Shown here one piece after another: positions 4,973-15,642 of a stretch of 23,264 nt of DNA; the stretch's first letter is position 1, and each line of letters opens with the position of its first letter. A program made the position numbers and the translations under genes. The stretch is taken from IMG/VR virus record IMGVR_UViG_3300006789_000172, positions 1 to 23,264 of that record; one strand, given 5' to 3'. This stretch comes from a virus. Under the pieces are notes generated by a model. That model saw nothing but the letters and a program-made list of their open reading frames with translations. It did not search any database and was not told where the DNA came from.

Positions 4973-7900
4973 ATGGCTACAGATAAAACGTGGGAATCAT
5001 TATATAGTGAGCCTCCTAAATGGGAAACACGCCCCTCTGCCAAAAGAAGATTTGAGTTTGGTGTGGAGGCTTCAACGTGGTTTGGAGGCGAGCTTTGGCG
5101 CATGGGAAAAGCCGCTTTACAACCAGGAGATTACAGAGAAAATATCGAAAGACTAGAACAAGAAAGACTTTCAAGAATTAAAGAAAAATTCCCCGATATT
5201 TCAGAAGAAGACGCAGCCAGTACAGCAGCTTTATGGGGACAAGGTGTAGGAATGCTGCTAGATCCTGCGATGTTTGGTACAATGTATTTAGCGGCCCCTG
5301 TAAAAGGCTCACAATTAACAAGGGCTGGCTTACGGGCTAAATCAGCCGGTATTTTTGGAGTAGAGGCTCCTATCAGGACAGCTACTTATCAATCTTCCAG
5401 AGGAGAAGATATAGACCCTACGAGCATTGCTTTGAGTACTGTTCTTGGAGGAGGAGTAGGGGCTGCTTTTCCTATGGTGGGACAAAGAAGACGTTTACTT
5501 GGGGCTGGAAAAGAAGAAACGCCAGAGCAAGTTATTAGGGATGCTACAGGAATATCTCATAAGCCTGTAGATGAAATCTCGCCTTCCAAAGCTTTAGAAT
5601 TATATCGTAAAGAAATGCGTCCCAGTATTGTCGATCCTCCCTTACCTCTTGAACAAGAACGAGCTATACATACTTCTTTATTAGCAGCAAGAGAACGGGC
5701 TGATATGCCTAAATCATTATTAGAGAATACTAGAAATATTCCTAATAATAATGAACTTCCTGCTTATCGTGCTGCTCTTACGCAACGAATAAAAGAGGAA
5801 AAAATAAGACGTACTAATAAAGAAGTTGGTGCTTTATCAGATAGAGAATTCAGGCTTTTAAGAGAAGAGAGGGTCAGGGTCTATAAAGAAGAAAAAGCAT
5901 TAGGATTCAATACAGCAGATCAAGCTATTGAACTTGGAGATGGGCTATATGCAGGAATATCTCAACTGTCTGATGATGGTCTTCTTACTGCGGCTTCTAT
6001 TAGAAGGGCGATTATCAGACCATTAATAGGGGCGGCAGGAGGCTATGGAACAGGGGCTACTGCTAATCTCTTTACAGAAGAAGACAATATTAATCCTTTA
6101 ATGTTCGCACTGATAGGAGCAACAGGAGGAGCTTTATCTAGTAAAATAGTTAAGTCTACTTTTTCTCCTTTAGTTAAAGAGGCTGGACAAGACGCGGTAA
6201 GTGACACTATTAAAAATACTATATGGGGTCAGGCCAATGTTCTTTTTTCTTCTACAATAGCTACAAGGGCAAATGCTTTTGGAGGGCGGCTAGAGCTATT
6301 TTCTAGGATGCTTTTTAATCAAGTTGGAGCAGATGCAAGAGGAGCATCTAAAGTAGCTTTAGAAACAACCTCCTCTTTAGTGAGGCAGGAAATAAACCAT
6401 ACCAGAAGGATATTTTTTGAGAATCAAACTTTAGACAATACAAAGTTTTCTTTGTTAGGATATAATAAAGATATAGTTCGTTATAGAGAAGCCGTTGGAA
6501 AATATACAAGAGGCTTATACGGTGAGACAGGGACAAGACAAGCCACCCAAGGATTAAAAGAGGCTGGTTTTAATGACGCAGAAATAGAAATGATTCGTGT
6601 AGCTTCTAGAGGAAGCAAAGCTCAAATTAATAAATTATGGGACGAGGTTAATGTTGTTCTTCCTGGGGTTGAAAAGCTAAAGGACTATGGGCTTCCTCAG
6701 TTTCATAACCATGCAGCAATTATAAAGAATGAAGCCGCCGCTAGAGCAGCTTATGAAAGAGCTTTTAGAATACAGGCCAAAACAGACGCGAGAATAAAAG
6801 ATCCAGTAGCTGCTGCTAAGAAGCACATAGATGAGATTATACAAACAGGCTCCCCTGGCGCGAAGACCGGAGGTCAGTGGATAGGGAGCGACTATAGTAA
6901 TCCTAATATGAGGATGCGTAGTATTATTAAGAATTTTGAATTAGACAGAACTTTTAAAGATATTAAAGCAGTTAAAGAAATTGAAGATTTTATGTTGTGG
7001 GATGTAGAAGAAGTAATGTCTCGTTATGTAGAATCGACTATTCCTTCTTTAGAATTTGCCAGAAGGTTTGGAGCAAGAGGCGAGGTAATAACCTCTATGA
7101 AAAGAGCGATTATTAAGGATTTTAAAAAGGCAATAGACAACGCTTCTTCTCCTAGCGAACAGAGAAGCCTACGAAGGTTACAAGACAAAGAAATGAAAAC
7201 TATACATGATATGGTAGATGTGTATCATGGTAGGTTACATGCTCGGCATGGTATCTCTTCTAATAATATATCTAATAATGCTTATGCTATAGCTACTACA
7301 TTTGCAAATTTGACTTATTTGCCAAAAGTTGTTGTTGCTAGTTTAGGAGACTTGGTACAGCCTTTTCAAAATAGTGGGGTTATGTCTGGTTTAAAAGGAA
7401 TGGGAAGAACCTTTAGTAAAAAAGATAAAGGAGGATTTCATAAGGACGGGTTTGGGGATGTAGGAGTTCTAGAACATGAACTACGAGCCTATACTATGAA
7501 AAATAACCCCGGCTCAACTGTTCAGGCTGCTACTTATGCTATAAACCAGAAGTGGTTTCAAATAAATGGACTAGCGCCTTTTACTGGTTTTGCTAGAAAG
7601 TTCGCATATAATTCAGGAATAGAGGAAGGGTTTAAAATTGCAGTACGGCTAGGAAAAAGAAAAACGCAATCACTCGCTGCCAGGGCTTCTGACGCAGGGA
7701 TTTCAAACCCTATAGCATCGTATCTTAGAAAGTTTAAAACTGTAGACGAAGCATGGCAAGACACAACGGCCCGTACTTATTTAAACAGAATAGGGGTAAA
7801 GGCGGCAGACAGGGATGCGCTTCTTCCTCAACTTGGAAATAGGAGAGGGTTTGCACAGTCTAAAAATCCTGCTATTCGTGCTACAGGACAGTTCTTATCT

Positions 7901-10801
7901 TGGGCGCAAGCTAAAAGCTCACAGACAAATGCTTTAATTAACAGGATGGAATCAGGAGATGCGGCACTGGCAGTTAGAATGTTAGGTTCGTTGGTTATAT
8001 ATGATGGTATTTTAACATTCAGAGATTTTTTAAACGATCCTACTGGAGAAAGATTAAAAGAAAAAGGGGTTGATACTTATACTGAGAATTTTAGAAAATT
8101 AGAAACTGTAGGAAGGTCGGGTCAATTTTCTGGAAATTGGACTCCTTGGTATATTGACAAAGTGGCTCAACTCATGTCCACAAACACGGCATATAATCCT
8201 CTTTCTAATGTTGCGCCTAGTTTAGGATGGGCTTGGGATATGATTACAGGTTTTTCGCCTCTTCCTTTTAAGGGGAATGTAGGCACGGTCTGGTCAAACT
8301 TAGCTCAGAGTGATCCAGAGGGAGCGATGGTACAGGTGCTTAACCGTGTTCCTCTTGGAAAAGAGCTTATGGATTTAAGAGAAGGCATTACTGGTGACAA
8401 ATTAGTAGATAAGCCTGCCCTTCGTCGGCAACAAGCAAAAGGTGGAATAGTTGAAAATGTTCCAGGTGTTCCAAAAGAACCTGATGAAAGAATAGATAAA
8501 ATGACAGGGCTTCCTTATAATGTACAAGCTGGTAAAGCTTTTATAGATGAAGAAGATCCAGAAAAACGAGAAGAATTTGTATTAGGAGGGCTTTCCTCAA
8601 GAATAGCAAGTGCTTTAAGAGAGGGACTAGGGAAGCTGTTTCCAGTGACAGCCTCTAAAGCAGACTATGTTCCTTCTGCCAGAATATTATCTGGTTTAAA
8701 GCCTTCCAGTAGAAAGGCCTCCCCTCCAAAAGCTTCCGAAGTTTCTCCAGAAGTACCTTCCTCTGCTGGAGAAGACTTGGCAAGATTGCAAGTAGCAGAA
8801 GAGGCCGCAGAAGCTGCTACATCTGCTGCGGGTAAAGATGTTGCAAGATTGAAAGCAGTAGAAGAAACAGACGTAGGAAATCTTTCACGGGAAGAAGTTC
8901 TTGATTCTATTAATGAAATGCCTTTAAAAGAAAGATTAAAAATTATAAGTGACGATTATGATACTTTTTATGATAAAAAATATGAATTTTTAGATAGCGA
9001 TAAAATTGACTTTTATGAAGATATTGTTGATCTTAAAACCTTACCTTCTGATTTTAAATCTAATGATGATGTCAATACCTTACTTAGAGTATATCTAACA
9101 AGATATGATATTCCTGAAAAGTTTATGGGTGAGGTTGATACGTTTGGAGAATTTAGAAGAGTGGCACATTTTAAAGAGTTAGATAATGGTAAAATTAGAA
9201 TCTTTATTCCTAATAATCAATATAGAGGACAAAATAAATTCACTACTAAAACATTTGATAATCCATCAAAAAAAGAAATAGAAGATTTTTTAACATCTAG
9301 TCCTGTGGACAAATCAATTAAGGAAGATGTTGCAAGACTGCAAAGTGTAAAAAAGACAGACAATGTACCTATGTTTCGTCATACACCCGAAGAAATAGAT
9401 ATTGCTGTTGCTACGGCAGCCAGTTCTGGGCCAGGAGTAGTAGGAGCGAAAGCCCTTGTTCCAAGAGCCGTTCTTCAAGAAGTCCCTAAAGCAGATAGAG
9501 GGTTTGTTTCTGTTCTAGAATTTGGAGCAGGGCCAAAAGCTCCTCATGCAGAACTATTTAGAAGAGAAGGTTTTCAAAATGTAACTGCTTATGATCTTCC
9601 TACTAGTATAAGAGAAGGAATACATGATCCAGATGCTTTGATAAGAAAGTATGATGTAATTAATGCTTCTAATGTTTTAAATGTTCAAGCTACAAAAAGA
9701 ATGCTTACTAATACTTTATCAGAATTAAGAAACTCTGTTAAAGAAGAAGGCTTTATTATAGCTAATTTTCCGATTACTCCTAGAAAAGGAGCTTATGAAG
9801 GAATAGGGACTAACAAGCAACAGACAGATTATTTAATTTCAAAAATTAAAGAGCAGTTTAATAGTGTTGAACGAATTACAGTTAAAGGAAGCAAAGATAG
9901 AAATGTGTTTAAAATTTCAAAGCCTAAAGCTGATGCCGAAGTTCGTATTATTACAGAGCCTCCTGCTACGACTGTACGGCCCACTACAGAACTGCCTCTT
10001 GCTACTAAACCTGAAACCGAGGTAAGTGTAAAAAGGGTGTGGATAGAGGATCATGTTGAAAAGCTTGCCTTGTTATATCTACCTGGGGCTGCTTACCTCA
10101 ATTCAAGAGAAAAAGAAGAAGCTCTTGATTCTATTAATGAAATGACTTTAAAAGAAAAATTAGAAATTATAAGTGACGAGCCAATTAAGGAAGATTTGGA
10201 AAGATTACTACAAGCTACAGAAGAAATAGAAGAGCCTCCATCTCCCGAAGAGGAAAAAGAAAGAGAGGGTTATCAAGAAGGCAGTTTGGTTGAAGACCCC
10301 TTCTCTGCTGGAGAAGATTTGGAAAGATTACAAGCTACAAGGGCAACAAGAAACAACAACCCTTACAACCTTGTTTACGGGCCTGCTATAGGAGCATCAG
10401 ACATACCTTGGAACGACAAGCTTCCTCACGATCCTGAGATTGAAGACACCTTTGAAAGATTCCTAACCCCTTTAGCAGGAATGAGGGCGGGGCTTATTAA
10501 TACATTAACACACTATGAGAGAGGAAAGAACACAGTAAGGGACTTAATAAGTGGTCACGCGCCTCAAAGGGGAGATATAAAAGAATTTCAAGGTAAAGAT
10601 GAAAACCCTACAGAATCATTTATTAGGTATGTAGCGGATGAAATGGGGGTAGAAGACACAGACGAATTAGATTTAACTAATAGAGATACTTTAAGAAAGT
10701 ATAACAATGCTGTTATTAAATTTGAAGGATTTGAAAATACGGACGAGACACTAGCAGATAGTGCTATAGACTTAGCTTACGAGTATAAGCAAATAAATTA
10801 A
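4973..10801 (+). CDS. Giant ejection/internal virion protein with methyltransferase-like and muralytic-like modules
   Basis: This 1942-aa protein occupies the T7 gp16 position as last and largest of the core proteins. Residues 1-1200 are helical, with Gly/Ala-zipper hydrophobic patches (TVLGGGVGAAFPMVG near 160, LIGAAGGYGTGATANLF near 350, FALIGATGGAL near 375) suited to membrane insertion during DNA ejection. From about 1260 it becomes modular. Five ED-x-x-RLQ-type linkers (residues 1263, 1284, 1449, 1738, 1778) alternate with domains: an unknown domain at 1330-1440, a Rossmann methyltransferase-like domain at about 1485-1655 (LEFGAGPKAPHAELF, then YDVINASNVLNV), and a terminal RNNNPYNL domain at 1789-1942 resembling a family found at the ends of phage structural proteins and thought to act on peptidoglycan. 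The architecture also recalls the polyvalent proteins described in phages and plasmids. Family assignments are by eye; the ejection role is inferred. Confidence 0.7.
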   Translation: MATDKTWESLYSEPPKWETRPSAKRRFEFGVEASTWFGGELWRMGKAALQPGDYRENIERLEQERLSRIKEKFPDISEEDAASTAALWGQGVGMLLDPAMFGTMYLAAPVKGSQLTRAGLRAKSAGIFGVEAPIRTATYQSSRGEDIDPTSIALSTVLGGGVGAAFPMVGQRRRLLGAGKEETPEQVIRDATGISHKPVDEISPSKALELYRKEMRPSIVDPPLPLEQERAIHTSLLAARERADMPKSLLENTRNIPNNNELPAYRAALTQRIKEEKIRRTNKEVGALSDREFRLLREERVRVYKEEKALGFNTADQAIELGDGLYAGISQLSDDGLLTAASIRRAIIRPLIGAAGGYGTGATANLFTEEDNINPLMFALIGATGGALSSKIVKSTFSPLVKEAGQDAVSDTIKNTIWGQANVLFSSTIATRANAFGGRLELFSRMLFNQVGADARGASKVALETTSSLVRQEINHTRRIFFENQTLDNTKFSLLGYNKDIVRYREAVGKYTRGLYGETGTRQATQGLKEAGFNDAEIEMIRVASRGSKAQINKLWDEVNVVLPGVEKLKDYGLPQFHNHAAIIKNEAAARAAYERAFRIQAKTDARIKDPVAAAKKHIDEIIQTGSPGAKTGGQWIGSDYSNPNMRMRSIIKNFELDRTFKDIKAVKEIEDFMLWDVEEVMSRYVESTIPSLEFARRFGARGEVITSMKRAIIKDFKKAIDNASSPSEQRSLRRLQDKEMKTIHDMVDVYHGRLHARHGISSNNISNNAYAIATTFANLTYLPKVVVASLGDLVQPFQNSGVMSGLKGMGRTFSKKDKGGFHKDGFGDVGVLEHELRAYTMKNNPGSTVQAATYAINQKWFQINGLAPFTGFARKFAYNSGIEEGFKIAVRLGKRKTQSLAARASDAGISNPIASYLRKFKTVDEAWQDTTARTYLNRIGVKAADRDALLPQLGNRRGFAQSKNPAIRATGQFLSWAQAKSSQTNALINRMESGDAALAVRMLGSLVIYDGILTFRDFLNDPTGERLKEKGVDTYTENFRKLETVGRSGQFSGNWTPWYIDKVAQLMSTNTAYNPLSNVAPSLGWAWDMITGFSPLPFKGNVGTVWSNLAQSDPEGAMVQVLNRVPLGKELMDLREGITGDKLVDKPALRRQQAKGGIVENVPGVPKEPDERIDKMTGLPYNVQAGKAFIDEEDPEKREEFVLGGLSSRIASALREGLGKLFPVTASKADYVPSARILSGLKPSSRKASPPKASEVSPEVPSSAGEDLARLQVAEEAAEAATSAAGKDVARLKAVEETDVGNLSREEVLDSINEMPLKERLKIISDDYDTFYDKKYEFLDSDKIDFYEDIVDLKTLPSDFKSNDDVNTLLRVYLTRYDIPEKFMGEVDTFGEFRRVAHFKELDNGKIRIFIPNNQYRGQNKFTTKTFDNPSKKEIEDFLTSSPVDKSIKEDVARLQSVKKTDNVPMFRHTPEEIDIAVATAASSGPGVVGAKALVPRAVLQEVPKADRGFVSVLEFGAGPKAPHAELFRREGFQNVTAYDLPTSIREGIHDPDALIRKYDVINASNVLNVQATKRMLTNTLSELRNSVKEEGFIIANFPITPRKGAYEGIGTNKQQTDYLISKIKEQFNSVERITVKGSKDRNVFKISKPKADAEVRIITEPPATTVRPTTELPLATKPETEVSVKRVWIEDHVEKLALLYLPGAAYLNSREKEEALDSINEMTLKEKLEIISDEPIKEDLERLLQATEEIEEPPSPEEEKEREGYQEGSLVEDPFSAGEDLERLQATRATRNNNPYNLVYGPAIGASDIPWNDKLPHDPEIEDTFERFLTPLAGMRAGLINTLTHYERGKNTVRDLISGHAPQRGDIKEFQGKDENPTESFIRYVADEMGVEDTDELDLTNRDTLRKYNNAVIKFEGFENTDETLADSAIDLAYEYKQIN
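8759..8791 (+). repeat. ED-x-x-RLQ linker repeat, copy 1
   Basis: It encodes SSAGEDLARLQ at residue 1263 of the 1942-aa protein, opening the modular C-terminal region. Related copies lie at 8822, 9317, 10184 and 10304. Confidence 0.75.
8822..8854 (+). repeat. ED-x-x-RLQ linker repeat, copy 2
   Basis: It encodes SAAGKDVARLK at residue 1284, only 63 bases after copy 1; the two may be a local tandem duplication joined by an Ala/Glu spacer. Confidence 0.7.
8891..8953 (+). repeat. 63-bp direct repeat, copy A
   Basis: It encodes EEVLDSINEMPLKERLKIIS followed by Asp, at the entry of the unknown domain. It matches 10115-10177 at 59 of 63 bases by hand alignment, 1224 bases apart and in frame. Confidence 0.85.
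9317..9349 (+). repeat. ED-x-x-RLQ linker repeat, copy 3
   Basis: It encodes IKEDVARLQSV at residue 1449, between the unknown domain and the methyltransferase-like domain. Confidence 0.7.
10115..10177 (+). repeat. 63-bp direct repeat, copy B
   Basis: It encodes EEALDSINEMTLKEKLEIIS followed by Asp. It lies just after the methyltransferase-like module and directly before linker copy 4, so copies A and B bracket the unknown domain plus the methyltransferase-like domain. Confidence 0.85.
10184..10216 (+). repeat. ED-x-x-RLQ linker repeat, copy 4
   Basis: It encodes IKEDLERLLQA at residue 1738, seven bases after direct repeat copy B. Confidence 0.7.
10304..10336 (+). repeat. ED-x-x-RLQ linker repeat, copy 5
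   Basis: It encodes SAGEDLERLQA at residue 1778 and leads straight into the terminal RNNNPYNL domain. It resembles copy 1 most closely (both carry SAGEDL). Confidence 0.75.
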
Positions 10802-10802
10802 A

Positions 10803-11066
10803 ATGCTCCTCTACCTTGAAAAAGATCTTGACAACGCTTATCAAATAGATTGCAAAGAACGAGCAAAGAAAGAAAAGCCTTGGATAAAGAGAGAAGAATT
10901 CAGAGGGATTTACGAAGACCTTATTAACCTGTATCTGCAAAAGGCAGAAGAACATATTTTTGTAGATGTATCTTTAGAAGATTTGCCAGGATGGGTATTA
11001 GGAGAAGTTGAAAATACATTACAAAACGAGATTGTATTTACCGAAGAGGATAAACGAGAGACATGA
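10803..11066 (+). CDS. Small acidic hypothetical protein
   Basis: The protein has 87 residues, starts one base after the giant gene's stop and ends in an ATGA overlap with the next gene, so it is probably translated by coupling; no strong ribosome site precedes it. It is charged and helical (LEKDLDNAYQIDCKERAKKE, then IKREEFRGIYEDLINLYLQKAEE), with no signal peptide or membrane span. Small proteins starting like this (MLxYLEKDLDxAY) are, as I recall, common at this point in marine podovirus genomes, between the ejection proteins and the lysis genes, and none has a known function to my knowledge. A cytoplasmic accessory or assembly factor is a guess from composition alone. Confidence 0.65.
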   Translation: MLLYLEKDLDNAYQIDCKERAKKEKPWIKREEFRGIYEDLINLYLQKAEEHIFVDVSLEDLPGWVLGEVENTLQNEIVFTEEDKRET

Positions 11067-12274
11067 CAGACTTTATTTTTAACAGATATTTTATTCCCAC
11101 TTTTATTTTATATATTCTTGGAAGTGTTCCTAATGTTTATGCACAGCAGACAGGAGTAACGTGTACTGCGGGTTCACAGTATTGTGAAGCTAATACTCTT
11201 TTAACAACTACAACTAGTACTAATACTAACACGAATGTTAATACTAACATTAACACTAATACGAATACAAACACGAATACAAATACAAATAATAATACTA
11301 ATATAAATACTAGTACTAACAATAATACTAATGTAAATACTAATAATAATCTAAATACTAATCTAAATACTAGTACTAATACTAATGCTAATACTAATCT
11401 TAATACTAATACTTCTACTTCAACTAATAATAATACTAATAATAATATAAATACAACTGAATATTCTGGAACATCAACTAATACAAATATTAATACCAAT
11501 ACATCGACCAACACAAATAATAATACTAATGTAAATACTAATACGAATAATAATACTTCAACAATTAGTTCATCTTCTACGGCAACTAATACAAATGTCA
11601 ATACTTCTACTGTGGATCAAAATGTAACTAGCAATAATGTAAATACATCAACCAATACAAATAATACAACTGCTACTAATACTAATACAAATACTAATAC
11701 AAATAATAATACTTCGGTATCTGAAAGCACTTCATCTTCGGATGTCACAACAAATAATACAAATGTAAACACTAATGAAAATATTAACCGTAACGAAACG
11801 ACACAGCGGATTACGCAAGATATTAATAGTCCTCCTCCTAGCGCGATTGCGCCAAGTATAGGAAGCTCCTATTCACAAGATTTATGTACGACAGGAGTAA
11901 GTGGGGCTTTGCAGACCCAAATTTTTGGATTTTCTGGAGGCAAGAGCATAACAGATAAGAACTGCGAACGTATCAAGTTATCTAAAACACTATACGACAT
12001 GGGCATGAAAGTTGCTGCTGTCAGCTTAATGTGTCAAGATGATAGGGTCTTTTCAGCTATGGAAATGGCAGGTACTCCCTGTCCTTATATGGGCAATATA
12101 GGAGAAGAGGCTCAAAAAAGATGGGACAGAAACCCGCAAGATCAGCCTGAAGGGATGACTAGTATTCACCATAATTTTAGAGAAGCGGATAGCAACTCCA
12201 GATATGAATATCGTGTTTGGACAAAAGAAGAGTTTTGTAATGAAATGCCTAACGAAACTATATGTCAGTCTTAG
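11063..12274 (+). CDS. Secreted Asn/Thr-repeat protein with conserved Cys-containing C-terminal domain
   Basis: The protein has 403 residues. Residues 1-27 look like a signal peptide (hydrophobic FIPTFILYILG, then VYA before QQ as a likely cleavage site). Residues about 45-260 are almost only Asn and Thr with some Ser, Ile, Val and Leu, mostly alternating N-T. Residues about 275-355 form a folded-looking domain with four Cys (LCTTGVSGAL, DKNCERIKLSKTLYDMGMKV, MCQDDRVFSAMEMAGTPCPY). A short charged tail adds two more Cys. I recall the same C-terminal signature, with similar NT tracts, in other marine phages but know no function. Export to the periplasm or outside is likely if the signal peptide works. 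It overlaps the next exported protein by 35 bases, suggesting a joint role. A virion decoration or adhesin-like protein is also possible. Confidence 0.7.
   Translation: MTDFIFNRYFIPTFILYILGSVPNVYAQQTGVTCTAGSQYCEANTLLTTTTSTNTNTNVNTNINTNTNTNTNTNTNNNTNINTSTNNNTNVNTNNNLNTNLNTSTNTNANTNLNTNTSTSTNNNTNNNINTTEYSGTSTNTNINTNTSTNTNNNTNVNTNTNNNTSTISSSSTATNTNVNTSTVDQNVTSNNVNTSTNTNNTTATNTNTNTNTNNNTSVSESTSSSDVTTNNTNVNTNENINRNETTQRITQDINSPPPSAIAPSIGSSYSQDLCTTGVSGALQTQIFGFSGGKSITDKNCERIKLSKTLYDMGMKVAAVSLMCQDDRVFSAMEMAGTPCPYMGNIGEEAQKRWDRNPQDQPEGMTSIHHNFREADSNSRYEYRVWTKEEFCNEMPNETICQS
11200..11815 (+). repeat. Asn/Thr low-complexity coding tract
   Basis: This is a degenerate repeat of AAT/AAC and ACT/ACA/ACG codons, alternating Asn-Thr, inside the secreted protein gene. 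All these synonymous codons are mixed irregularly. That fits an old tract kept by selection on the protein better than fresh polymerase slippage. Confidence 0.85.
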
Positions 12275-14717
12275 TTTATTATTTTCAATTGCCGTAGGAG
12301 CCGCTGATTTCACTGTAGGGTCTGGATCTATTATTGATCTAAGAACCCAGGAAGGCGCGTCACAGTGGGATGTTTCGGACGATGGGCTATCTGAAGCTAT
12401 TGATTTAGGCTTTACATTTGAATTTTATGGGAATGAATATACTCAGGGGCATATGGCTACAAACGGTTGTTGGTCATTTACGACGGACTATTGCTATGAT
12501 TACACTCCTGACCCGTTACCTAACACGGTTTATACTATCTACCCCTTTTGGACAGATCTTATTAGGGATAATGGCTCTAGAATGCTTACCAAGTATTTTG
12601 ATTCTCCTGATGGTGACGGTTATTTTATAGCTGGTTGGTATGATTTAAGAGAGTATTATCGAAACTCCGATAACACATTTGAAATGTGGTTATATGAAAA
12701 CTCTAATAATATTGAATTTAGATACGGAGAATTAGATATTAGTAACCATGATGTTTTGATTGGTATACAGGGAAGTATGACAGAGTATGATCAGTACCTG
12801 TTCCATGATGAATGTGCTACAGGAACTACAAATATTTCTAGTTCTTGTGTTAATAATGATTGGAATAATACTTCTCATAATACAAGTTTAGAAAATAACT
12901 CTCTGATAATAGAAGCAGATATTACGGCACGTTGTATTGCTGACCCTTTATATTCTATAGATTGTACTGGATATGCACAGGCTTATTTTAATCAGCAATG
13001 TGAAATGGACGCTTTATATGATGTGGGTTGTGCTGGATACGCACAGTCTTATTTTAATCAGCAATGCGGGATAGATGTTTTATATAATGTGAACTGTGAT
13101 GGATACGCGCTGGCTTATTTTAATCAGCAATGTGGGATAGATGCTTTATATGATGTAGATTGTTCTGGTTATGATGCGGCTTATATGACGCAACAGTGTT
13201 CTTTTGATACGCTTTACCATAGTTCTTGTCCTGGTTATAGGGCAGCTTTAGAGCAACAACAAGCCATCGCAGATTCTCATACAATAGAAGAAGAAGAGAT
13301 TGAGGATGGCACTTACAGTCAGGAAGAAAACGATATGTTTGGTTTATCTCCTGATGAAATGTATATAAATGAAGGTTATGATTCAGAAGAGGAATTTTAT
13401 GGATATGAAACAGAAATTTTGGAACCTCCTTACAACGATATGGGCTACGATGAAGAAGAGATTCAAGCAATTGATCAATTTTATCAAGAGGAAGCGGTAA
13501 CATTTGAACCAGAGAATTTGTTTGTTTCTGCTCAACCTGAAACAGGGTTAAGCTCTTCTGGTGACGGGTCTATTCCTTTTAATAATATAGAGGCAACACA
13601 TGAAGAAGCTTCTGTTGTACAATTAGACGAAGCATATATTTTTGAAGAGTTGGAAATCACTGACAATTGGTTATCTGTTGAGGATGATTGGGCAGAAGAC
13701 GCGGCTTTAGAAGAGGAAGAAGCTAGTCCCTTAGAAGAACAAGCGGAAGAGCTTTTTGAAGATTTAGAAGAGATAGCCGAAGAAACTGAGATTCTTTTTA
13801 TTGAAGATGAAACCCTTGAAGAGCTTATAAATGAAGAAGAATTAGAGCTTCTGCTCGATGAAGAAGTAGAAGAAGAAGAAGACAACGTAGAAACTTTTAA
13901 AGAGAAAGAAGAAGCTACTCTTGATGTTGAGAAAAAATCAAAAAGGGTTTTTGTACGGTCTAAGGGGCCTAGTTTTTCCGGGCCTGTTCTCACTCAGGAA
14001 GCCGCTGTAGCTTTAAATTCTGTAATAGATATGGGGGTACAGGGCATGGAAGTTACGGGCGCTACAGGGTCTGTCAGTGCGTTAGAGGACGAAAGCGGTG
14101 ATAGCTTCCTAAGAGAACAAGGGGAACAGACATCAGGAATTCAAGAATTTCAAGCAGCAGAAACCGGCCCTGAAATAGTTTCCTCTCCTTTTGAAGTAGC
14201 GGAACAACAGCAAGAACAGCAGACCCAGGACGAGTTAGTATTTGAAGAAGGAGAAACCTTTGCACAATCGGACATTCAATTTGAAGAGAATTTTAATGAG
14301 GCAATAGCTGTAGGAGGAGATATAGGGACATTCCTTAGTCAACAAGCTCCCGATTTTGGGAGGTTTGATGTAGCTCCTCCGACAGTTACTGAGCAAAGAA
14401 TTACACAAGCTGTAGAATCTTTAGCAGATCAGATAGGAGCGGCGGCAGCACAAGAAAATTTACAAGGACAGTTAGATGTTATGATGCAGGAAGGAGGCTT
14501 TGATACAGATCAAACGGCAGCGGTAGTTTTCATGGGATATAGGGAAGGCTTCTCGCAGTATACACAACAGACGCAGATTCCTGATCAGGGCAGTTGGTAT
14601 ATTAGTAATATTTTGTATGCAAAGGAGGATGTACAGGACAATAACTTTAGCTTTTATATGATGGCAGGAAAGTCTCAAAAAAAGCTTAACGAAATGGTGA
14701 ACGTAGGATATAAGTAA
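12240..14717 (+). CDS. Secreted multidomain protein: NIDO-like domain, five Cys repeats, acidic stalk
   Basis: The start was placed at 12240, not 12204, because it puts a clean signal peptide first (MKCLTKLYVSLSLLFSIAVG, then AAD) and has AAGAAGAG just upstream; the product is 825 aa. Residues about 24-200 resemble a nidogen-type (NIDO) domain (FTFEFYGNEY, YPFWTDL, DGYFIAGWYDLREYYRNSDN-TF, NNIEFRYGEL). Residues 232-341 are five 22-residue repeats with a C-x2-D-x-LY-x3-C-x-GY core ending in QQ, ten Cys in all. Residues about 347-567 are very acidic (long Glu/Asp runs) and probably extended. The C-terminal 250 residues are Gln/Glu/Ala-rich with a helical end. The disulphide-ready repeats fit an exported protein. 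Candidate roles are envelope or surface adhesion, or a virion appendage; none is proven. Confidence 0.7.
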   Translation: MKCLTKLYVSLSLLFSIAVGAADFTVGSGSIIDLRTQEGASQWDVSDDGLSEAIDLGFTFEFYGNEYTQGHMATNGCWSFTTDYCYDYTPDPLPNTVYTIYPFWTDLIRDNGSRMLTKYFDSPDGDGYFIAGWYDLREYYRNSDNTFEMWLYENSNNIEFRYGELDISNHDVLIGIQGSMTEYDQYLFHDECATGTTNISSSCVNNDWNNTSHNTSLENNSLIIEADITARCIADPLYSIDCTGYAQAYFNQQCEMDALYDVGCAGYAQSYFNQQCGIDVLYNVNCDGYALAYFNQQCGIDALYDVDCSGYDAAYMTQQCSFDTLYHSSCPGYRAALEQQQAIADSHTIEEEEIEDGTYSQEENDMFGLSPDEMYINEGYDSEEEFYGYETEILEPPYNDMGYDEEEIQAIDQFYQEEAVTFEPENLFVSAQPETGLSSSGDGSIPFNNIEATHEEASVVQLDEAYIFEELEITDNWLSVEDDWAEDAALEEEEASPLEEQAEELFEDLEEIAEETEILFIEDETLEELINEEELELLLDEEVEEEEDNVETFKEKEEATLDVEKKSKRVFVRSKGPSFSGPVLTQEAAVALNSVIDMGVQGMEVTGATGSVSALEDESGDSFLREQGEQTSGIQEFQAAETGPEIVSSPFEVAEQQQEQQTQDELVFEEGETFAQSDIQFEENFNEAIAVGGDIGTFLSQQAPDFGRFDVAPPTVTEQRITQAVESLADQIGAAAAQENLQGQLDVMMQEGGFDTDQTAAVVFMGYREGFSQYTQQTQIPDQGSWYISNILYAKEDVQDNNFSFYMMAGKSQKKLNEMVNVGYK
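12933..13262 (+). repeat. Five tandem 66-bp repeats encoding 22-residue Cys units
   Basis: Units begin at 12933, 12999, 13065, 13131 and 13197, each opening with a TGT codon and each exactly 66 bases. Units 2-4 are the most alike (LYDVGC, LYNVNC and LYDVDC, then GYA or GYD); units 1 and 5 have diverged. Each unit holds two Cys eight residues apart plus a GY and a QQ end. Confidence 0.9.
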
Positions 14718-14718
14718 T

Positions 14719-15246
14719 ATGACAGAAGTAGAATATAAAGGTATTAAGGTTGGAGGAGGAAAACTTCTTCTAATATTGCCCCTGCTTGGTACGATTTCAG
14801 GAGGCTTGTGGGGAGGTTTTGAATTATATAATAGACTTTTGGATGCGGAAGCAAAGTTATCAGCACTACAGCCAACGGCTATAAAGGCTGAAATGAATAG
14901 ACTTGAAACGGTTTATAATATTATACGGGAAGAACTGGTAGCCGATATTGCGGCAGTGTCTGCTAATATCGAGGCTGTTTCCCGTGACATAGACGAGTCT
15001 AATAGACTTTCTAGAAGTGTCGAATCTTCTACTGCTGAAACTCAGAGAGAGGTTCGTAATGATATATATGAGATAGAAAAATCTATGCACACACAATTTC
15101 AAGACATGAATACAGAATTAAGGACTATGCGAAGCGACCTGGACGACGAGGCCAGATCTATAAACGAGGATCTGCGTGAGATTCGTGATGATTTACAAGA
15201 AAGAATTGAACAAATATTAGCTAATCCTCTTAATGATGTAGAATAA
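14719..15246 (+). CDS. Membrane-anchored coiled-coil protein of the lysis region
   Basis: The protein has 175 residues and starts one base after the previous stop, with AGGA upstream. One hydrophobic segment spans residues about 14-35 (KLLLILPLLGTISGGLWGGF). Residues about 40-170 show heptad-like spacing of hydrophobic and charged residues (EAKLSALQ, then IEAVSRDIDESNRLSRSVES, then MRSDLDDEARSINEDLREIR), typical of a long coiled coil, and there is no Cys. One N-terminal anchor followed by a coiled coil is the architecture of inner-membrane spanins such as Rz, and the gene sits directly before the holin, which fits. No outer-membrane lipoprotein partner with a lipobox is visible here. It could instead be a holin regulator or a tail-region membrane protein. 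Confidence 0.55.
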   Translation: MTEVEYKGIKVGGGKLLLILPLLGTISGGLWGGFELYNRLLDAEAKLSALQPTAIKAEMNRLETVYNIIREELVADIAAVSANIEAVSRDIDESNRLSRSVESSTAETQREVRNDIYEIEKSMHTQFQDMNTELRTMRSDLDDEARSINEDLREIRDDLQERIEQILANPLNDVE

Positions 15247-15258
15247 AGGCAGAAGAGA

Positions 15259-15642
15259 ATGATAGATAAATTGATAGGCCCCGTAACAAGTATCGTAGAT
15301 AAGTTTGTAGTTGATAAAGACTTAAAGATGAAGCTACAGCATGAGCTAGAGACAGCTTTACATAGCGCTAACTTAGCACAGCTTGAAGTAAACAAAGCAG
15401 AGGCGGCTCATAAGAGCGTCTTTGTGGCTGGCTGGAGGCCTTTCGTTGGATGGGTCTGTGGGGTTGCTCTTAGTTATCATTTCATTCTGGCCCCTCTCTT
15501 ACAGTTCGGTTTCGCGTTAGCCGGAATGGATCAAGAACTTCCAGAGTTTGAATTTAGTCAGCTATCAACTGTACTCATGGGGATGCTTGGCCTGGGAGGG
15601 CTTCGGACGTTTGAAAAGATGAAAGGAGTTTCAAGAGACTAG
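15259..15642 (+). CDS. Holin, GTA-type three-transmembrane family
   Basis: The protein has 127 residues and resembles the three-TM holin family first defined from gene transfer agents of alphaproteobacteria. The recognisable core is VAGWRPFVGWVCGVALSYHF followed by a second span, the polar loop MDQELPEFEFSQL and the final GMLGLGGLRTFEK. Residues 1-50 form an amphipathic cytoplasmic helix. Such proteins open lesions in the inner membrane at the end of infection so that muralytic enzymes can reach the wall. It is the last gene of the rightward unit and sits 12 bases after the coiled-coil membrane protein. No endolysin gene adjoins it. The family match is by eye and fairly secure; actual holin activity is inferred from the family. 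Confidence 0.8.
   Translation: MIDKLIGPVTSIVDKFVVDKDLKMKLQHELETALHSANLAQLEVNKAEAAHKSVFVAGWRPFVGWVCGVALSYHFILAPLLQFGFALAGMDQELPEFEFSQLSTVLMGMLGLGGLRTFEKMKGVSRD

Follow-up and report, generated by a model that had tools for sequence, protein, structure and literature searches.

The window analyzed here, i.e., the whole 23,264-nucleotide stretch of record IMGVR_UViG_3300006789_000172, is 23.3 kb long and represents a genome fragment, catalogued in IMG/VR, of a marine phage resembling podoviruses. Its minus strand codes for a DNA polymerase, a primase/helicase, a Cas4-type exonuclease, and a ribonucleotide reductase. The plus strand, to which all window features below belong, codes for a large ejection-type protein (4973..10801; phrog_873) with a lysozyme-like C-terminal domain, three genes here called A, B, and C, and a GTA-type holin with three transmembrane segments (15259..15642; PF11351/phrog_3427), the ejection gene being the upstream and the holin the lysis neighbor of A-B-C. 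The lysozyme-like domain terminates the ejection protein (10322-10753, residues ~1784-1927) at a junction where relatives have a stand-alone lysozyme gene (compared with L001:8262-8696); between the ejection gene and A, the close relatives L001, L002, and L005 each possess a lysozyme as a gene of its own. The start codon of A overlaps the stop codon of a preceding gene for 87 amino acids (ATGA), a junction that suggests coupled translation.

Gene A (11063..12274) encodes a protein of 403 amino acids belonging to phrog_20531 (match at 4.6e-13), a family annotated as 'unknown function' for which neither partner nor cassette is described. The protein consists of a probable signal peptide (11063..11143), a QTGxCTAG-like motif, an Asn/Thr-rich linker (11195..11797, residues 45-245), and a Cys-bearing helical C-terminal domain; alignment and AF2 place a conserved, disulfide-ready helical domain at residues ~258-360 of A, in the C-terminal part of the protein (11804..12271). 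The initial annotation had described A as an Asn/Thr low-complexity protein with a Cys-bearing C-terminal domain, which agrees well with an Asn plus Thr content of 72% in the linker and with the mapped Cys residues (34, 41, 275, 301, 324, 340, 392, and 401), the conserved domain having four Cys. Across the family the N/T/S-rich linker differs greatly in length, being very short in some proteins and several hundred residues long in others. The Cys domain, by contrast, is conserved, and a hydrophobic C-terminal segment terminates A in 19/118 loci. AF2 modeling of an A fragment gives confident helices in the core only (residues 52-109, pLDDT 77-89; pTM 0.44), and a fold search with A yields weak matches only, with FimV TPR3 at Z 2.1, and no functional match.

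Judged from their N-termini, both A and B look exported, A having the weaker signal peptide. With a simple von Heijne-type rule, A passes in 61/84 loci and B in 48/62 loci, as compared to 78/637 background genes. B of the window passes as well, and A of the window misses the criterion of a positive n-region alone (MTDFIFNR..., net charge 0); its hydrophobic core, its -3/-1 site (VYA followed by QQTG), and its QTGxCTAGxQYCE motif, which is present in much of the clade, agree with relatives possessing canonical signal peptides. The signal peptides proposed earlier for both proteins are therefore supported.

Gene B (12240..14717) encodes a protein of 825 amino acids with a swappable head, Cys repeats, an acidic stalk, and a conserved tail. 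The reported overlap of A and B is exact, as are the coordinates of both genes: it comprises 35 bp (12240-12274), and the start of B overlaps the stop of A in 40/41 relatives (median 26 bp). An alternative in-frame ATG exists upstream at 12204; the start at 12240 is preferred because it has the better Shine-Dalgarno sequence (AAGAAGAG), exposes the signal peptide, and is conserved in relatives. The canonical signal peptide (12240..12302; MKCLTKLYVSLSLLFSIAVGA followed by ADF), which shares its first 35 bp with the 3' end of A, precedes a NIDO-like β-sandwich head (12312..12944), about five Cys repeats (C..LY...C.GY..AY..QQ; 12933..13298, residues 232-353) that are helical in the AF2 model, an acidic low-complexity stalk (13302..14039, residues 355-600) with 33% D/E and 3% K/R, and a C-terminal tail (Y...WY...IY...DN...; 14490..14714) common to B proteins with different heads where its profile matches. 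The disulfide-ready repeats and the acidic stalk are thus as first described. The assignment of a NIDO-like domain stands in part: the head is a confident β-sandwich in AF2 (pLDDT mostly ~90) and PF06119 (NIDO) matches 5/42 B relatives, the best at 2e-4, yet B of the window itself has no match at E<0.01, and in other B proteins unrelated heads occupy the same slot. The head has no clear PDB match; a fold search with it found glycosidase and lyase β-sandwich domains as weak matches (Z up to 5.1) and no functional match, and a search of a viral fold library found two uncharacterized Caudovirales proteins. In tblastn searches against INPHARED, neither B, the Cys repeats of B, nor C of the window gave a match.

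At least seven unrelated heads occupy this one slot in the B family. Clustering placed 65 heads in a NIDO-centered group, nine in a carbohydrate-binding-type group, seven in a short group, and two in each of three groups, besides singletons, and the B tail is common to several of these groups. Members of the NIDO clade show good conservation of the head. That the head was copied from the phage's own tail fiber was considered and rejected, as no relative of it is found elsewhere in the same sequence in eight phages/loci.

Gene C (14719..15246) codes for a protein with an N-terminal transmembrane segment and a coiled coil, which ends in the motif ANPLNDVE (15220..15243). The tripeptide NPL lies no more than nine residues from the C-terminus in 86/86 complete C proteins, as compared to ~11 of ~5,150 other ORFs (~0.2%), although the training seeds for C were mostly picked by this motif; held-out loci and phage records were not. 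From profiles and predicted features, C seems to be an inner-membrane coiled-coil protein with the topology of an i-spanin. C of the window matches no spanin family of PHROGs, and C of locus L088 matches phrog_739 at 0.026 only, among 18 other families.

The C-terminal domain of A has matches in at least 593 stretches of IMG/VR and in 11 phage records, which comprise pelagiphages, roseophages, and uncultured phages, and in inspected loci A is followed by a large, usually exported B and then by C. The first loci served to build three profiles, which cover the A core, the C-terminal 75 residues of B, and C and were then run on all loci. C is encountered downstream of A in 79/79 loci that extend for 3.6 kb or more beyond A, consisting of 55 loci of the training set, 17 held-out loci from genome_contigs, and seven phage records. 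The B-tail profile matches in 55/55, 9/17, and 1/7 of these, respectively, indicating that the tail is conserved in a large marine clade and has diverged or is different in cultured pelagiphages, in which B was assigned by position. The initial annotation had seen a coupled, exported pair between ejection and lysis genes, and a coupled exported system in the company of lysis genes is supported. The pair is, however, not complete, as the invariant unit is A-B-C, with the head of B as a swappable module.

A-B-C occurs in the T7-like podoviruses Baldr and S28-C10, in the siphovirus-like HTVC202P, which possesses a tape measure, in the T4-like Mosig, in the HMO-2011-type phages HTVC033P and CRP-207, and in the spring-water genome MW202481. 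The A profile detected no A in 12 related isolates. HTVC202P and HTVC111P are sister phages with 95% identical terminases; the former has A-B-C, whereas the latter lacks A and has the same slot occupied by a TM-coiled-coil protein together with small secreted proteins that contain Cys. This pair indicates that the module can be exchanged and apparently travels as one piece. A host origin of the module was rejected, since the contigs matched in genome_contigs had been binned to a scatter of taxa and are read as mis-binned phage DNA. A recognizable lysis gene is situated at a distance of no more than 2.5 kb in at least 54/124 loci, many of which are incomplete. These neighbors are lysozymes (35 loci), GTA-type holins (12 loci), or Rz with a downstream lipoprotein (12 loci), and an endolysin is encoded near the module in HTVC023P and HTVC033P. 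In L088, Rz follows directly after C and matches phrog_739 at 7.5e-12. For the 12 Rz loci, the L088 protein was scored against PHROGs, the records of L043, L053, and L064 match phrog_739, and the others were assigned by similarity; phrog_739 is an unspecific coiled-coil model with matches in 11/14 control genomes.

Further exported proteins are associated with the module in some phages. Just upstream of A, CRP-810 (L136:8393-8650, minus strand), CRP-207 (L143:14959-15165, minus strand), and MW202675 (about 907-1116) encode a small protein with an A-like motif (CxRNxxAxTLxxIGxxEAAxxLxCxx), which reads as a lipoprotein with a lipobox in CRP-810 and CRP-207, in both of which no gene is annotated for it. 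Among 50,697 phage records it is limited to these three, and its position and exclusivity suggest that it is part of the cassette. It resembles the A profile only weakly (E ~0.007; 12 bits versus 9.8 for the best of 1000 shuffles). In seven loci (L101, L103, L106, L107, L108, L111, and L120), up to three further signal-peptide proteins are inserted between B and C, for example in L106:4971-6231 and L107:9275-10639. One of these has two Cys and, by eye, a pilin-like C-terminal strand pattern, one is chaperone-like in appearance, and one belongs to phrog_37374; a profile search with the inserted proteins against PDB sequences revealed nothing meaningful.

From three protein families with a common order, export or membrane features, the terminal NPL, swapped heads, and a lysis neighborhood, we infer a physical complex with docking partners, a ligand, and a role in release. 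Our preferred reading, to which we give a probability of roughly 0.45, is that A-B-C forms a late envelope complex of the infected cell, an accessory of release or lysis that is spanin-like without being a spanin. C would reside in the inner membrane and extend a coiled-coil arm into the periplasm, carrying NPL as docking motif at its tip. A would serve as an exported adaptor, a disulfide-bonded helical domain on a flexible N/T-rich tether, which in some phages may be anchored by the hydrophobic C-terminal segment. B, also exported, would present a swappable ligand-binding head on its acidic stalk, and its conserved tail would dock to A or C. Acting together with endolysin and holin at the end of infection, the complex would hold or breach the outer envelope and thereby allow the release of progeny. 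That NPL might dock into the helical domain of A, in the manner of TPR-like peptide binding, is only an idea, as the model of A is of low confidence.

This release role is supported by the constant presence of C after A and of NPL in C, by the lysis genes nearby, and by the upstream lipoprotein of CRP-810, CRP-207, and MW202675. Like the two-component spanins Rz/Rz1 (phrog_739, phrog_214), A-B-C comprises a predicted coiled-coil inner-membrane protein (C), exported partners, overlapping genes, and a position in the lysis cassette. In contrast to Rz/Rz1, A and B are far larger and have no lipobox, a scan of the window detected no lipoprotein ORF, C ends in an invariant NPL, B carries a swappable head, and the module coexists with an Rz-like gene and a lipoprotein in 12 loci, where ordinary spanins are not replaced. 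This coexistence weakens the release reading, as do the lack of functional matches in fold searches, the weak homology of the upstream lipoprotein to A, the lack of a clear difference in lipoprotein content between isolates with and without A-B-C, and the consideration that a spanin needs no swappable adhesin-like head. The coexistence also led us to reject A-B-C as a plain spanin, and C as an ordinary i-spanin was rejected because an Rz-like gene lies beside C in L088 and further loci.

A less likely alternative is that A and B are displayed on the surface of the infected cell with C as their inner-membrane anchor, and that the head of B binds a glycan or phage receptor in order to block superinfection, to mask receptors on debris and so save progeny, or to make cells stick. 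In favor of it are the export of the proteins and the swappable, adhesin-like character of the heads, which comprise NIDO, carbohydrate-binding-type, and further kinds; the seven loci with additional exported proteins, one pilin-like by eye, fit as well, and no protein other than B has a NIDO-type head in the examined loci. However, the module sits among late lysis genes, whereas most known phage exclusion genes are small and expressed early, conservation of the head is high within the NIDO clade, and no outer-membrane route is encoded as far as tested, CsgG being absent from 20 records. The receptor-blocking exclusion proteins Llp of T5 and Cor of phi80 and N15 are also phage proteins exported to the host envelope; they are small, single, and mostly lipoproteins, in contrast to three genes that code for a head-stalk-tail protein, an inner-membrane partner, and A. 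Release or lysis seems to fit the genomic context somewhat better than superinfection exclusion or adhesion, the preference resting on the position of the module, the topology of C, and the replacement in HTVC111P, while the alternatives remain viable owing to the swappable head and to the presence of Rz alongside the module.

It is improbable that A and B are finally carried by the virion, for instance through attachment during or after lysis, with the head of B helping to find the next host. Such a function could account for a swappable binding head and for the location of A after the ejection genes in the window, but it is difficult to reconcile with signal peptides and an invariant pairing with an inner-membrane protein. 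Furthermore, the module occurs in genomes whose tails are unrelated (podovirus-, siphovirus-, and T4-like), and no relative of the head occurs among the tail proteins of the tested genomes. A literature search found no virion proteomics for A-bearing phages.

Slightly more improbable still is that the module disrupts the outer membrane as a lipoprotein-free replacement of Rz/Rz1. In six phages with A-B-C (HTVC202P, Baldr, S28-C10, HTVC033P, HTVC023P, and HTVC115P), neither a lipoprotein ORF nor a confident Rz match was detected, and a lipoprotein ORF is likewise not detected in the majority of complete pelagiphages that carry the module. CRP-235, which lacks A, has an embedded Rz/Rz1-like pair, and CRP-207, which infects the same host, has A-B-C. 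Nevertheless, both systems coexist in the 12 loci mentioned, phrog_739 is an unspecific model, and in most pelagiphages lacking A-B-C no lipoprotein spanin is detected either. The absence of the lipoprotein is therefore not tied to A-B-C, and isolates with and without the module show no clear difference in lipoprotein content, so that replacement is without statistical support.

Curli and type VIII secretion genes have been reported in some pelagiphages (PMC9599517, PMC7029224, PMC9004378), and A is likewise an exported marine-phage protein with curlin-like Asn-rich repeats, yet A is most improbable as the amyloid subunit of such a system, as it matches neither curlin nor any other Pfam family, its linker varies widely in length beside a conserved Cys domain, and the link to pelagiphage curli systems is removed by the absence of CsgG from the 20 records, 19 of them A-bearing (the window's own record is a fragment), searched with a model that matches 4/14 control genomes.

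Returning to a late envelope complex, one may go further and suppose, with the odds somewhat against it, that A-B-C is an undescribed three-part envelope-spanning phage machine, in which C loads A and an interchangeable B by means of NPL and thereby controls the opening of the outer envelope or phage interaction, and which has been distributed as one block across marine phages of podovirus-, siphovirus-, and T4-like type. A full-text literature search found no description of the A-B-C module. The phages that carry it number in the hundreds and infect bacteria that are abundant in the ocean, namely SAR11, Roseobacter, and probably further groups. In most pelagiphage isolates examined, no lipoprotein spanin is detected; A-B-C is a concrete and testable candidate for an envelope function late in their infection, and the A-B pair followed by a C ending in NPL provides a signature for finding the module anywhere.

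Despite their wide spread, the proteins of the module are annotated as 'hypothetical' or in a misleading manner, for example in L011, L012, L013, and L129, where A is called OmpA family, C lysozyme or DUF2730, and B TonB transport protein. The phage contigs L095-L122 appear mis-binned in public MAGs labeled Euryarchaeota, Woesearchaeota, Trichodesmium, Bacteroidetes, and others, and OQ414636.1 (L126) is entitled EXVC032P Baldr, yet its locus tags are named EXVC031PHodr. L006:1484-2750, located downstream of C, codes for a small CopC-like protein and for a protein of periplasmic appearance whose N-terminus is rich in His; this may be a metal-related insertion. Finally, a gene annotated as 'toxin-activating lysine-acyltransferase' is present in pelagiphages and a roseophage (L007:11243-11692, L130:24054-24476, and L150:9830-10279).
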